Shown here piece by piece: positions 13,396-32,221 of a stretch of 38,231 bases of DNA. A model generated the notes under the pieces. That model saw only the letters and a list, made by a program, of their open reading frames with translations, did no database searches and had not been told where the DNA came from. Each line of letters starts with the position of its first letter. Position 1 is the first letter of the stretch. The translations under genes were made by a program, and so were the position numbers. Origin of the DNA: Nitrososphaerota archaeon (lineage in GTDB: Archaea; Thermoproteota; Nitrososphaeria; Nitrososphaerales; Gagatemarchaeaceae); assembly GCA_016200045.1 (NCBI GenBank), contig JACQFN010000012.1, forward strand, positions 1-38,231. Reading direction: 5' to 3'.

Positions 13396-15336
13396 GTGGG
13401 CTCGACGGGGCAGGAAGGAAGGCGCCTGGGCGCAATAATGTTCACCGACCTGGTAGGGTTCTCTGCGATGGCGGGGAAGGATGAGGATGGGACTTTGAGG
13501 ATGCTGGGGGAGCACAGGAGACTGATGGAGGAGGTGTTCGGCAGTTACAACGGAAGGGTGGTGAAGTCCACCGGAGACGGGTTCTTGGTGGAATTCGCGA
13601 GTGCGGTCGAGGCTGTGAATTGCGCGGTCGAGGCACAGAACAAGATGACCTCTGCGAACCGAGGAAAGAAGATTGCCGAAATGATATCGATCAGGATCGG
13701 AATCCATGTGGGAGACGTGGTCCACTCCGGAGGGGACGTCTTGGGCGACGCTGTCAACGTCGCAGCCCGGGTCCAGCCTCTGGCTGACGTAGGAGGCATC
13801 TGCGTTACGAGGCAGGTCTTTGACCAGGTCGTCAGAAAGGTGCCGAACAGGATGGTAAAGATCGGGACGCGCGACCTTAAGAACATCCAGTATCCGGTAG
13901 AGCTCTATAAGGTCGAGGTGGCTTCGAAAACGACAGAACCAGAATTCGCTAATATGGACCCTCGCCGGCTGGCGATCCTGCCCCTGGCGAACATGAGCGG
14001 GGACCCGGAAGACAAGTACTTCGCTGACGGGATGACGGAGGAGCTGATTTCCACAGTGTCTAGGATCGGCGAACTCAGCGTCATCTCTCGCACCTCTGTA
14101 ATGCGGTACAAAGACACCAACCTGCCGATCGGAGAGATAGGCAGGGAGCTGTCCGCGGGGGCAGTGCTCGAAGGGAGCGTGAGGAAGGCGGGCAACAAGG
14201 TCAGGATTACCACGCAGCTTATCGACGCGCGGAACGACCGCCACCTCTGGGCGCAGAGCTACGACAGAGACCTCACTGACGTCTTCGCCATCCAGGGGGA
14301 CATCGCCGAGAGGGTCGCGGAAGCGCTGAAGGTCCAGCTGCTCGGGGAAGTGAAGGAGAGCTTCGCCAGAAAGACGACCGTCGACCCAGATGCGTACACT
14401 GAATACCTCAAGGGGAGATACTACTGGAATGAAAGGACCCCCGATGCCGTCAGGCTGGCTATCGTCCACTTTGAAAAGGCAATCAAGAACGACCACAACT
14501 TCGCCCCGGCTTACTCGGGGTTGGCAGACTGTTACTCCATTCTGGTCGACCTGCAAGCAATGCCTCGGGCCGACGGCCACCACCGTGCGAAGGAGTATGC
14601 GGAGACGTCACTTTCGTTGGATGGGTCGCTCGCCGAGGCCCACGCGTCGTTGGGCCTGATAATGGAAAATACATGGAATTTCAGAAAAGCGGAGAAAGAA
14701 CTGGAAACGGCTCTGGAGCTCAGACCGAACTACGCATATGCGGCCCACTGGCTCTCATTCGTCAAACGCGGGCTGGGTCTGGAAGTGGAGGCGTTTGAAA
14801 TGGAACGGCGCGCGCATGAACTGGATCCCTATTCGCGTCCCATCGCCATCACCTACGGAGCGGTCCTCACGAACCAAGGAAGGGAGGAGGAGGGTATGGG
14901 AGTGCTCGACAGGGTCGTCGAGTTGAACCCTGACTACGCCACCGGGTTCATGATGCGTGCATGGGGGCGTTCATCCCAAAAGGACTTCGACGGGGCCATC
15001 AGGGACGTCGAAACCGCCCTAAGGCTCATGGGGGGGAAGGGTGCGGACAAGATAAACCTGGCGTGGATCTACGCGGTAGCAGGAAAGCCGTCCGAAGCGA
15101 CGAGGATGCTTGACGAAACAATGCAGGAGGAGGGCCCTCTTCTCTCCCCCGCCGAGGTCGCAAGCGCAATGCTGGCCTTGGGTCGCTCCGATGAGGGTTT
15201 CTCGTGGCTGAACAAGGCCGTCGACGAGCAAGATGGCAAGATTTTCTTTTTCGGAATGCATAACTTGGAAAGGCAATTCCTCTCGGACCCGAGATGGCAT
15301 GAAATAGAGAATAGGCTCGCCGAATTCAGAAAATGA
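13396..15336 (+). CDS. Class III adenylate cyclase with TolB-like and TPR regions
   Basis: A 646-residue soluble protein. Residues 10-175 form a class III nucleotidyl cyclase with both metal aspartates (D18 in FTDLVGFS, D61 in STGDGF), the adenine-selecting pair K57 and D114, and the transition-state residues N121 and R125 (GDAVNVAAR). It should therefore be active and make cAMP from ATP. Residues about 190-320 resemble the TolB-like/FlgO domain (LAILPLANMSGDPEDKYFADG). The rest, about 330-640, is a run of TPR-like helices (AYSGLADCY, AHASLGLIME, AAHWLSF...). This layout is common in soil bacteria, so acquisition from bacteria is plausible. GTG 13396 fits the promoter. A second cyclase gene converges on its 3' end. 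Confidence 0.9.
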   Translation: MGSTGQEGRRLGAIMFTDLVGFSAMAGKDEDGTLRMLGEHRRLMEEVFGSYNGRVVKSTGDGFLVEFASAVEAVNCAVEAQNKMTSANRGKKIAEMISIRIGIHVGDVVHSGGDVLGDAVNVAARVQPLADVGGICVTRQVFDQVVRKVPNRMVKIGTRDLKNIQYPVELYKVEVASKTTEPEFANMDPRRLAILPLANMSGDPEDKYFADGMTEELISTVSRIGELSVISRTSVMRYKDTNLPIGEIGRELSAGAVLEGSVRKAGNKVRITTQLIDARNDRHLWAQSYDRDLTDVFAIQGDIAERVAEALKVQLLGEVKESFARKTTVDPDAYTEYLKGRYYWNERTPDAVRLAIVHFEKAIKNDHNFAPAYSGLADCYSILVDLQAMPRADGHHRAKEYAETSLSLDGSLAEAHASLGLIMENTWNFRKAEKELETALELRPNYAYAAHWLSFVKRGLGLEVEAFEMERRAHELDPYSRPIAITYGAVLTNQGREEEGMGVLDRVVELNPDYATGFMMRAWGRSSQKDFDGAIRDVETALRLMGGKGADKINLAWIYAVAGKPSEATRMLDETMQEEGPLLSPAEVASAMLALGRSDEGFSWLNKAVDEQDGKIFFFGMHNLERQFLSDPRWHEIENRLAEFRK

Positions 15337-15357: not shown

Positions 15358-16428
15358 CTAGATGACGAGAGGCTTGTTGCCCACCGTAAGGTCTTCGAGG
15401 AGCTGGTAGCTCTTCAGAGCGTCCTTCTCCTCGATCACCACTATCGCGTGCGGACTGGTGGTGATGTACTCGATGAGGTTGATCCCGTTCTTCGCAAGGT
15501 GGGTGGTGATGGTCGCAACGACCCCCGGGAGGCTGAGTACCGAATCGGCCAGGGACACGACTATTTCTGCGAGCCCGCTCATCACGTTGAGGATGTGCTT
15601 CTTTGGAACTGCGGCGTTGAGCTTGTCGAGGTTCTTCGAGTCGGTCACCACCTTGACTGTCTCAATCCCGGCAACGATGTGGAGAGTCTCCCCTCTCGCG
15701 TAGTTCACCTCCCCTGAGAACTTCGCCAGCGCCCTCGGGATTTCAGGGTCGTTGTTCAGGGTGACCACGACTATGTTGTTCTTCAGGGTCAACTTCAGGA
15801 CCAGCTTCCCCATGGACTCCCGCTTCCCGCTCACTTCCTTCGCTTCGTACTTCCTTACGAGGCTCACCGCAGGGTGGGCTGGCTTGTCCGGGGACCTTGA
15901 GACCACGTTGGTCCACGGAAGCCTGACCTTGTAGACGTCGATGGGAAACGCGATGTTCTTCAGGTTCTGCGACTCGAGCCTGACCAGTTCGTACGGGATC
16001 TTGTTGCGCACCTGGTCATAGACTTGCTCAGAGATGCACACATCGCCGCCCTCGGCAAGCGGCTCGATCCTCGACGCGATGTTAACCGCATCCCCATAGA
16101 CGTCCCCCTTCTGATGGACGACGTCGCCGACATGAATCCCGATCCGGAGAAGCAGCTTCTTTCCCGCCCTCTTGTTGTACTCGTGGAGGGTCTTCTGAAT
16201 CTCGATTGCGCACTCAGTCGCGTCGAGAGCGCTGTGGAATTCTATCAGGAAGGCGTCCCCCATCGTCTTGATCTCGTGGCCGTCATGCTTGTTTATGGCC
16301 GGCCTGACAAGCTCCCTGTGTTTCTTCAGGAGCCGCAGAGAGAGGGCCTCGTCCCTTTGGCTCAGGGCGGTGTACCCCACGATGTCGGTAAACATTATTG
16401 CGGCAAGTCTTCTACCTGAATGAGGCAT
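15358..16428 (-). CDS. Class III adenylate cyclase fused to an ACT-type module
   Basis: A 356-residue protein. Residues 5-175 are a class III cyclase with D14 and D58 for metals, K54 and D109 for adenine recognition, and N116 and R120 for transition-state binding, so an active adenylate cyclase is expected. After a linker (about 176-205) comes a module of about 150 residues. Its last 65 residues ([21 protein letters not shown] ... GINLIEY ... AIVVIEE) match an ACT domain of the aspartokinase type, preceded by a less clear ACT-like unit. ACT domains usually bind amino acids or other small ligands, so ligand-controlled cAMP synthesis is inferred. No membrane segment. ATG 16428 lies behind a TATA-like CGTTTTATT (16459-16467). 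It is 21 bases from the convergent cyclase. Confidence 0.88.
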
Positions 16429-18304: not shown

Positions 18305-18313
18305 GCTTTAATG
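18305..18313 (+). promoter_or_regulatory. TATA-like box for the small membrane/output module
   Basis: GCTTTAATG is centred 29 bases before the ATG at 18338 and decides that start over the upstream ATG at 18311. Confidence 0.5.
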
Positions 18314-18337
18314 ACCCTCTATGCGGAGCAGGCTCTC

Positions 18338-18622
18338 ATGGACTTACAGATAGCGCTCAACATCCTGGACGGGGCGCTCGTCCTTGGCGTGGCGATTCCG
18401 TCCCTCTTCCTCGCGCGAACGGTCAAGCAACCGAAGCTCAGGCTTCTCGCCGGTCTCCTCTCGGGGTTCCTGCTGATTCACGGCCTCTATCACGCGACCT
18501 TTGTTCTCGGCTCGATGCCAGGGCTCGAGGCATTGGGTGACCTCTCTGGCGTCATAGTCGAGCCCGCGGGGTGGCTGCTTTTCTTCATATTCTCCGTCTT
18601 GCTCTGGAGGTACAGTGAGTAG
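18338..18622 (+). CDS. Small three-helix membrane protein
   Basis: From the ATG at 18338 the product has 94 residues with three hydrophobic segments (about 7-26, 34-54, 66-88) and short loops. A HGLYHATFVLG segment follows the second helix. It resembles in size and layout the small three-helix proteins found next to archaeal HTH regulators, including the one at 31949 in this window; the likeness is by eye. Its stop overlaps the start region of the next gene, so the two are coupled and probably act together at the membrane. An in-frame ATG at 18311 lies inside the TATA-like box and is unlikely. Confidence 0.7.
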   Translation: MDLQIALNILDGALVLGVAIPSLFLARTVKQPKLRLLAGLLSGFLLIHGLYHATFVLGSMPGLEALGDLSGVIVEPAGWLLFFIFSVLLWRYSE

Positions 18623-19247
18623 CATGGCGGAGTTCTCTTACGCGTCTGAGGCCGGCACTGCGGGGGCGTTCGCCGAGCTAATCTCGCTCTTCCTGATCGT
18701 CGGCTCGTTCATCCTAATCTCCTACCTCAACTCCAAGATCAGAAGCCGGCGTACCTTCCAGTTCGAGATGCTCATCTTCATCTCAGTCCTCGCGTTGGCG
18801 GAGATTCCCAGGACGCTCTATTCGCTCGGAATAATCGACATCGATTCCCTTTCTGACGTGGGGCTAGAGCTACACTCCGTCTCAATGCTGTTCCTCTCGC
18901 TGTTCGTCGGGTACAGGATCTACGGGTTCGCCAAGGGGAAGCCTGTTACTGCGGTGAAGGGAAGCTACGAGCACGTCATACTATCGTCTGTCGACGAAGC
19001 CCTGCTCGGGGTGTTCGGAGAGAACACTTCCAGAGCCATGAACTTCTACTTCGACAGGACCCTCGCCCTCGCTGACCCGGCCTCCTACGAAACCGCCCTG
19101 GCGCACGTCTTCGGGAACGGCTCGAAGCTGGTCACTTCGGCCATCCTCGACAACGTCTGCAAGAAGGCCGGGGTCGAAAGGGCCCGAGTGAACACCCTCA
19201 CCGAGGCTTGGAACGAAACCAGGGCCAAGGTCTCGGGGAGGACCTGA
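18615..19247 (+). CDS. Membrane protein with C-terminal archaeal output-like domain
   Basis: A 210-residue protein with three hydrophobic helices (about 20-42, 50-75, 82-105). A soluble C-terminal part of about 95 residues starts at HVILSSVDEALLGVFGENTSRAM. This domain resembles output domains described in archaeal sensory proteins of the NitrOD type, with an SVDExL...GE...A..F/Y pattern; the assignment is tentative. GTG 18615 overlaps the upstream stop; ATG 18624 is an equally good start. The gene overlaps the small three-helix gene upstream, suggesting a two-protein sensor in the membrane. The signal and target are unknown. Confidence 0.72.
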   Translation: MSSMAEFSYASEAGTAGAFAELISLFLIVGSFILISYLNSKIRSRRTFQFEMLIFISVLALAEIPRTLYSLGIIDIDSLSDVGLELHSVSMLFLSLFVGYRIYGFAKGKPVTAVKGSYEHVILSSVDEALLGVFGENTSRAMNFYFDRTLALADPASYETALAHVFGNGSKLVTSAILDNVCKKAGVERARVNTLTEAWNETRAKVSGRT

Positions 19248-30740: not shown

Positions 30741-30830
30741 TTAGGCGGTGAGGGCGTGAGGAATGTCTGTCTCCGGGGCCTGACACCCTTTGCCACCTTT
30801 GATTCTCAGCGTCGAAAATTGTCTCAGCAT

Positions 30831-30840
30831 CTTAAATATC
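30831..30840 (+). promoter_or_regulatory. TATA-like box for the membrane protein at 30880
   Basis: CTTAAATATC predicts a start of transcription near 30857, giving a leader of about 23 bases that contains a GAGGT ribosome-binding-site-like motif at 30862-30866. Confidence 0.5.
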
Positions 30841-30879
30841 GTGCGTCTTGGGAGAGATGAACGAGGTAACGACAGAAAA

Positions 30880-31413
30880 ATGCAACCGCCAAAGGGAAAA
30901 TGGATGCCTAGGTTCATTTGGGCTGCGGTAGTCCAGGGACTCTTCGCTGTACTCTGGACGCTCTTCTTAGTCAACCCATGGTACCAGCTGTTCGGGTCTG
31001 TGCCTCCGTCAAGGATGATAGCGCTGGGGAGTGCAGGCTCGTGGTTCACCTTCGGGTACATCCTCTACATCCTAGTCGGAGTCATCGGGGTCGCCGTTAC
31101 GGCCCTGTTCTACTACTACATCGAGGACATACAGGGGAAGGTCTATTCAGGTCTGACAAACGTTCTCGCATGGCTTCACTACGTCCTGATGAACGTGGGA
31201 GTGGCTGCGTCCACGTGGTCGCTCATGTATGCGGGCTATGTCGGAGGCAGCTACCTCGCAGTCCACGGCGTGGCCAACGGCACTGCAATAGGGTACGCCC
31301 ACGTGAACCTGTTGTCTCCTTGGGTCAATCCGATAGGCTATCTTGTGGGGATGGCCACTCTCGGGGTCGTCCTCGGTGGCCTAGGCTACATAATCAGAAG
31401 CAGGACGAAGTAG
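30880..31413 (+). CDS. Polytopic membrane protein of unknown function
   Basis: A 177-residue protein with about five hydrophobic segments (near 10-30, 45-75, 85-105, 115-130, 145-170). Two conserved-looking aromatic/His stretches are present (LAWLHYVLMNVGVAASTWSLMY and YLAVHGVANG). The histidines in helices faintly recall heme-copper oxidase subunit I helices, but the length is far too short and I do not assign it. The ATG at 30880 follows GAGGT by 13 bases. Another ATG at 30857 is out of frame. No close neighbour in the same operon is evident. Confidence 0.72.
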   Translation: MQPPKGKWMPRFIWAAVVQGLFAVLWTLFLVNPWYQLFGSVPPSRMIALGSAGSWFTFGYILYILVGVIGVAVTALFYYYIEDIQGKVYSGLTNVLAWLHYVLMNVGVAASTWSLMYAGYVGGSYLAVHGVANGTAIGYAHVNLLSPWVNPIGYLVGMATLGVVLGGLGYIIRSRTK

Positions 31414-31466: not shown

Positions 31467-31559
31467 TATCTCGCGGTTGAGACTCGTGAACCTACGCTTC
31501 ACGTTTCCTGGCGGCGGCAGAGCCTGCAGATAAGCGACCCGACCGAAGTCCAGGCGCTG

Positions 31560-31886
31560 GTGCAGGGCCTGGCGGACGAATATTCGCGCAAGATCCTGCT
31601 GTCGACCATCCCGACTTCGAAGTCCGTGGACGACATCAGCCGCGAGAACGACATCCCCCTCAGCACATGCTATCGGAGGGTCCACGAGCTTCTAGATTCT
31701 CAGATCATAGTCGTGGACAAGATCATCGTGACCGGCGACGGGAAGAAATACGAGCTGCTGAGGGCCGCATACAGGTCGGTGACGGTCAGCTTCGAAGACG
31801 GGATGATGAAGGTCGAGGCGGTGATAAACGAGGACGTCGCGGAGAAGCTGAGAAGGCTCTGGCTTACGATGAAGGTGACGAAGTGA
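31560..31886 (+). CDS. Winged-helix (ArsR-like) transcription regulator
   Basis: A 108-residue DNA-binding protein from the first usable start. Its winged helix runs from DEYSRKILLSTIPTSKSVDDIS to a recognition helix IPLSTCYRRVHELLDSQIIVV and a beta wing (DKIIVTGDGKKYELL). Sequence resembling the domain's first helix extends upstream in the same frame to about 31524 (SLQISDPTEVQALVQGL). However, no ATG, GTG or TTG exists in that frame before 31560. The true N terminus is thus unclear (see findings). A small three-helix membrane protein follows 62 bases downstream. Confidence 0.8.
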   Translation: MQGLADEYSRKILLSTIPTSKSVDDISRENDIPLSTCYRRVHELLDSQIIVVDKIIVTGDGKKYELLRAAYRSVTVSFEDGMMKVEAVINEDVAEKLRRLWLTMKVTK

Positions 31887-31948: not shown

Positions 31949-32221
31949 ATGGATCTGATCTACCTAGACGCAGCGCAGGGGCTTATCCTGGCGTTCGGGG
32001 GCACGGTCGTTTTCTACGCAGTGAGGGCCTTCCTGAGGACCAAGAGCCGCGCGATGCTGATGCTCGGGCTTGGCTTCGCTTTCGTAACGGCGGGCGCAGT
32101 CATGGCCGGCGTCCTGTTCAACACAAATGGGGACCTGGTCGCGGCAGAAACGGCGCAGGCCGCGAGCCAGGCCGTGGGATTCCTCATCATAGTCTACTCG
32201 TTCACAGGCACGAAGGACTAG
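31949..32221 (+). CDS. Small three-helix membrane protein, DUF7521-like
   Basis: A 90-residue protein with three hydrophobic helices (about 8-26, 36-55, 68-86). A basic turn follows helix 1 (RAFLRTKSRAML), and the pattern FAFVTAGAVMAGVLF...VGFLIIVYSF resembles small archaeal membrane proteins of the DUF7521 kind, which often sit beside HTH regulators. That fits the winged-helix gene immediately upstream. It may tether or modulate the regulator at the membrane; this is inference. The open frame continues far upstream, but ATG 31949 is preferred for its TATA-like box. Confidence 0.75.
   Translation: MDLIYLDAAQGLILAFGGTVVFYAVRAFLRTKSRAMLMLGLGFAFVTAGAVMAGVLFNTNGDLVAAETAQAASQAVGFLIIVYSFTGTKD

Follow-up and report, generated by a model that had tools for sequence, protein, structure and literature searches.

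A near-obligate pair of three-helix membrane proteins in Nitrososphaeria as a candidate two-piece receptor with exchangeable outputs

The window, by which we mean the whole stretch of 38,231 nucleotides analysed here, comes from a Nitrososphaerota genome of 1.54 Mb in 25 contigs. It carries two consecutive genes on the + strand, P1 (18338..18622) and P2 (18624..19247). P1 encodes a protein of 94 aa with three predicted membrane helices and forms the first half of the pair. P2 encodes 207 aa, in which a three-helix membrane half (P2N, 18663..18941, +; family profile match E 6.4e-29) is fused to an output-like, presumably cytoplasmic C-terminal domain (P2C, 18954..19241, +; approximately residues 111-206). 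A preliminary description, made from the sequence alone, had claimed a 94-residue three-helix protein overlapping a gene for a three-helix protein with a C-terminal domain; both open reading frames are confirmed and hydropathy agrees with this layout. Whether the genes overlap, as claimed, is decided by where P2 starts: from GTG 18615 (210 aa) it shares 8 bases with the end of P1, whereas ATG 18624 (207 aa) lies 1 base past the P1 stop. P1 has an alternative start as well, an in-frame ATG at 18311 that yields 103 aa instead of the 94 aa from ATG 18338. A promoter common to both genes is plausible from a TATA-like element, CTTTAATG (18306..18313, +), read by eye approximately 25-30 bases 5' of the P1 start. 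In both proteins the three helices are joined by basic inner loops and acidic outer loops, and hydropathy places the N-terminus outside and the C-terminus inside, with no extracytoplasmic domain in the pair.

The genes flanking the pair, a DUF885 gene upstream and a helicase gene downstream, are related to neither P1 nor P2. Further upstream, two genes encoding adenylate/guanylate cyclase domains run towards each other (13396-15336, +, and 15358-16428, -), one with TPR repeats and one with a C-terminal ACT-like domain. Neither P1 nor P2 has a match reaching the cut-off in Pfam or NCBIfam, and the Pfam scan of both proteins returned no HisKA/HATPase and no REC domain. For the membrane halves, Pfam gave scattered matches below cut-off (TMEM164, SirB, DUF7649, LysE, cytochrome b561 and others), which were set aside as noise.

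The C-terminal domain had been compared to archaeal output domains, and profile searches bear this out for the family. One P2C relative exceeds the cut-off of 27 bits for NitrOD5 (PF11537) at 31.7 bits (L028), and two others reach 21.2 (L012) and 16.1 bits (L018). An iterated profile links the P2C copies of the window and L028, and a profile of P2C relatives matches PDB 2p9x, which we take to be a NitrOD5 protein, over nearly its full length (E 2e-4). At the level of sequence profiles, the P2C family thus reaches NitrOD5 and resembles the archaeal 'death domain-like' output domains through intermediates. Since the window's own copy has no match in Pfam and stays below the PF11537 cut-off, we call it NitrOD5-like and not a member of NitrOD5. 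An unrelated enzyme found no support as the identity of P2C, the remaining matches of its profile among solved structures, an rRNA methyltransferase included, being partial.

NitrOD5-type domains are described by Galperin et al. 2018 (PMC5847659) as stand-alone or following a REC domain; in the window P2C is instead fused to a membrane half, and in relatives it is a separate gene. P2C is the gene next to P2N in G096, G252 and G574 and at the first pairs of G275 and G171, with a spacing of -4 to +3 bases. In the window P2N runs into P2C without a stop, the sole P2N-P2C fusion among the 7 P2C-linked pairs, and this fusion is known from one assembly. A second candidate fusion, in G189 (L085 3880-4404), was rejected, its third helix lying in another frame through a frame artefact or gene decay. 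Three further genomes (G203, G209 and G257) contain the P2C domain with no match to P1 or P2N.

Family profiles built from relatives for P2N (A1) and P1 (A2) were each run over 300 genomes of the class. The P2N profile gave 42 matches in 29 genomes and the P1 profile 42 matches in 31 genomes (the window's P1 at E 1.1e-23), with both present in 27. The distribution is thus patchy, at 29-31/300 genomes. Across the phylum, P2N matches occur in 8/349 genomes, two of which (G414 and G574) lie outside the class. Named loci bearing the pair belong to Nitrososphaeraceae, Nitrosopumilus, Nitrosarchaeum and other thaumarchaeal records. Of 42 P2N matches, 38 have P1 immediately upstream (two of the 38 from one G189 region), and adjacency is likewise kept in 37/42 P1 matches. 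The four P2N matches lacking an upstream P1 comprise one at a contig edge, one partial match and two partial matches with stop codons. In relatives the boundary between the genes ranges from an overlap of a few bases through direct contact to fusion; ten loci from six assemblies encode P1 and P2N as a single chain of 194 to 225 aa. P1-P2N adjacency exceeds chance and the pair is near-obligate. The proposal of an obligate pair is therefore upheld by an almost universal adjacency in the neighbourhood survey together with ten natural fusions, while the wording of a 'one-piece' sensor fails, as two genes share the membrane part between them and the output alone is fused to the second. A literature search covering few subscription papers found no paper naming such a pair. 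The profile-profile comparison of P1 and P2N gives a probability of 8% (E 0.004), no more than a hint that the halves share an ancestor.

Folding was restricted to fusions and P2N rows, since the joint alignment of fused and single proteins had set P1 rows on the P2N half. The model of the natural P1-P2N fusion L048 is compact (pLDDT 75, pTM 0.63), and a single compact bundle formed by P1 and P2N appears plausible from it. Among the best 50 matches listed, this model resembles seven-helix receptors with Z 13.8 to 11.9, including sensory rhodopsin II (2ksy; 189 residues aligned, 3.7 A, Z 12.9); the structure-comparison tool cautions that helical bundles often give Z values below ~13. The likeness may be only a common arrangement, and Foldseek with the same model returned no match at E<=0.001. 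Microbial rhodopsins have seven helices and a retinal-binding lysine in the last helix, whereas P1-P2N has six helices and no Lys in the last P2N helix. A model of the window's P2 (pTM 0.40) drew long-helix matches in the structure search and was not used.

Both membrane halves carry conserved histidines. A motif in P1 helix 2 has His at its first position in 31/40 members (Gln in 9/40) and at its second in 35/40; in the window it is H48-x3-H52 at the end of the helix (18479..18493, +). The P2N family has an invariant His (44/44), H84 in the window (18873-18875, +), and an invariant Arg (43/43). Hydropathy places the conserved His of both families at outer helix ends. The small size of the pair and its lack of a recognised ligand domain would suit a simple membrane anchor, in which six helices tether the output domain or some neighbouring protein to the membrane and sense nothing; a single helix would suffice for this, however, and the invariant His and Arg of P2N would be left unexplained, so we regard an anchor as very improbable.

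P1 shares with the ethylene-receptor domain ETR1_N three helices and the pattern F-x3-[C/H]-G-x2-H in helix 2, but it has His in place of Cys, lacks the GAF and kinase parts, and is paired with a second three-helix subunit. In sequence alignment, P1 H48/H52 fall on ETR1 Cys65/His69. Some P1 members have an Asp in helix 1, in uncertain register relative to ETR1 Asp25. The copper ligands of ETR1 are Asp25, Cys65 and His69 (PMC12643061). The ETR1_N model (PF25487) was taken up as a lead after its match list had been inspected and P1 genes were seen to recur there. Over the 300 genomes it gives 82 matches at E<=0.1, two of them over the cut-off, and 7/82 are P1 genes (ranks 3, 4, 16, 39, 57, 65 and 70), all below cut-off, the best at 23.4 bits (L046) against 27. 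The window's P1 has no match to this model. The share of P1 genes is far above chance (4e-10 for 42 P1 matches, even if just 20,000 candidate proteins are assumed, with small-membrane-protein composition not fully controlled), and the model also matches weakly, below cut-off, in 6/14 control genomes. In the other direction, a P1 profile run against 3297 ORFs and the ETR1 sequence gave ETR1 an E of 0.011, among P2N members (0.18 with a second profile), and the archaeal ETR1_N protein L095 scored E 0.33 and 0.54 against two P1 profiles. A plasmid search for ETR1_N relatives gave no match. The copper link of the pair is, from these sequence comparisons, a lead only.

The two genes over the ETR1_N cut-off, L095 (G242) and L096 (G188), come from the same order as the pair and, read by eye, are histidine kinases that keep C-G-I-T-H. 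They appear to be ethylene-receptor-like sensors in archaea, although the G242 domain and its kinase occupy different frames.

Gene neighbourhoods were compared by clustering the ORFs around the pairs into recurrent families and counting these within 2 kb of 54 paired loci; three P2N matches without P1 (L049, L055 and L056) were excluded, and the loci are not independent, L071 and L168 sharing one contig and several loci one assembly. Two families recur. C1 comprises cupredoxins, plastocyanin-like proteins and multicopper oxidases; C2 consists of TrmB- or HTH_20-type winged-helix proteins, most of which score below or near those cut-offs. Both lie near 27 pairs, C2 alone near 8 and C1 alone near 2; P2C is found at 7 pairs and none of the three at 10. 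In total, C1 occurs at 29/54 pairs, C2 at 35/54 and either or both at 37/54, and P2C together with C1 or C2 at 0/54. As a yardstick, 19 cupredoxin matches in 1.7 Mb (G171) would put a random place within 2 kb of one in ~5% of cases. A frequent order is a divergent cupredoxin gene, P1, P2N and then a convergent C2 regulator. In G414 (L161, 4782-7184), two KaiC-type ATPase genes surround P1-P2N, one of them overlapping the end of P2N. The neighbours of the pair (C1/C2, P2C or KaiC) therefore exchange between loci. The window's contig has no cupredoxin match, and there is none near the pair in the window's genome.

These neighbourhoods could also be read as those of a membrane helper for exported copper proteins, with the pair carrying copper to cupredoxins and multicopper oxidases or assisting their assembly, and the winged-helix gene merely controlling the cluster. 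The cupredoxin or multicopper-oxidase genes near more than half of the pairs speak for such a helper, as do the conserved polar His at the outer face. Nevertheless, the 7/54 pairs with a NitrOD5-like domain, the window's included, have no cupredoxin, one pair stands with KaiC ATPases, and a soluble helical domain on the inner end suits signalling better than copper delivery; we consider a helper rather unlikely. Alternatively, the pair may be a receptor for another input, namely a gas or small hydrophobic molecule, the membrane redox state or a non-copper metal. Copper serves only as a cofactor for a gas in ethylene receptors (PMC12643061), and the window's pair has neither a copper gene nearby nor an extracytoplasmic domain, but copper-protein neighbours are widespread in relatives, and this kind of input seems to us unlikely.

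AmoA was found in 18 of 32 genomes searched. It was absent from the tested genomes with P2C-linked pairs (G000, G096, G252, G275, G171 and G189; G574 was outside the test). The C1/C2 linkage nevertheless extends beyond ammonia oxidisers, since G171 and G275, both AmoA-negative, each have a second pair close to C2 and a cupredoxin-type gene (L158, 31.8 bits; L159, 23.4 bits, sub-threshold and not counted as C1). In G226, C1 and C2 occur without an AmoA match, perhaps through incompleteness.

The window does contain a C2-type winged-helix gene (31560..31886, +; match 31539-31874; HTH_20 26 bits, cut-off 27), the only such match in the genome, 12.6 kb from P1-P2. It is directly followed by a gene for a small membrane protein of 90 aa, Q (31949..32221, +). 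Q resembles, we presume, the haloarchaeal DUF7521 pattern, and it has no match to the P1 and P2N profiles. In six other genomes of the same genus searched for both genes (G096, G252, G146, G169, G175 and G199), 76 to 95 bases separate the regulator from Q; the P1-P2N pair is absent from four of these, and in G096 a cupredoxin match lies ~0.8 kb from Q. Because G275 has regulator, Q, P1 and P2N in one same-strand row, with a divergent cupredoxin-type gene, the window carries apart two pieces (regulator with Q, and P1-P2) that form one gene row elsewhere, with no order of descent implied. Just upstream of the winged-helix gene, at 30790-31413 (+), is a gene for a 207-aa membrane protein with a heme-copper oxidase subunit I match of 21.4 bits (cut-off 34.8).

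Taken together, near-obligate adjacency, natural fusions, conserved outer His, the P2N-P2C fusion and C1/C2-rich neighbourhoods suggest that the pair likely has a receptor role. We propose, with a probability of about one half, that it is an undescribed two-piece receptor with an outward metal site and exchangeable outputs, the output being fused in the window. P1 and P2N would form the halves of one six-helix membrane receptor with N-termini outside and C-termini inside, and the H-x3-H of P1 helix 2 with the invariant His of P2N helix 3 would build an outward-facing metal site. By analogy with ethylene receptors, this putative site would most simply take copper or a ligand bound to copper. 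Occupancy of the site might move the helices and pass a signal to the attached output. That output would be a winged-helix regulator at loci with cupredoxin genes, a KaiC ATPase at another and, in the window, the NitrOD5-like helical domain, which may act on a further partner. Against a receptor, and against copper, we count the sub-cut-off ETR1_N scores, Gln at the first His position, the pairs with none of the three neighbours, the lack of a cupredoxin on the window's contig, the patchy distribution and a fusion known from a single assembly. A more specific version is distinctly tentative: a split, His-ligated relative of ethylene receptors, with two three-helix subunits forming an outward receptor for copper or a copper ligand and plug-in outputs (winged-helix, NitrOD5-like or KaiC), in ammonia oxidisers and AmoA-less relatives.

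Nitrification by ammonia-oxidising archaea runs on copper enzymes. For copper limitation in Nitrososphaera viennensis, the available sections of one study point to a CopRS-like two-component system and to an ArsR-type gene as candidate regulators and name no established copper receptor (PMC7785015). The pair would similarly serve copper-dependent control near copper proteins but has no kinase or receiver domain, in contrast to a CopRS-like system. A conserved, receptor-like pair that neighbours cupredoxin genes and carries a motif where ETR1 has copper ligands is a directly testable candidate. If the proposal is true, NitrOD5-type domains would gain a membrane input, and one membrane scaffold would swap its outputs.
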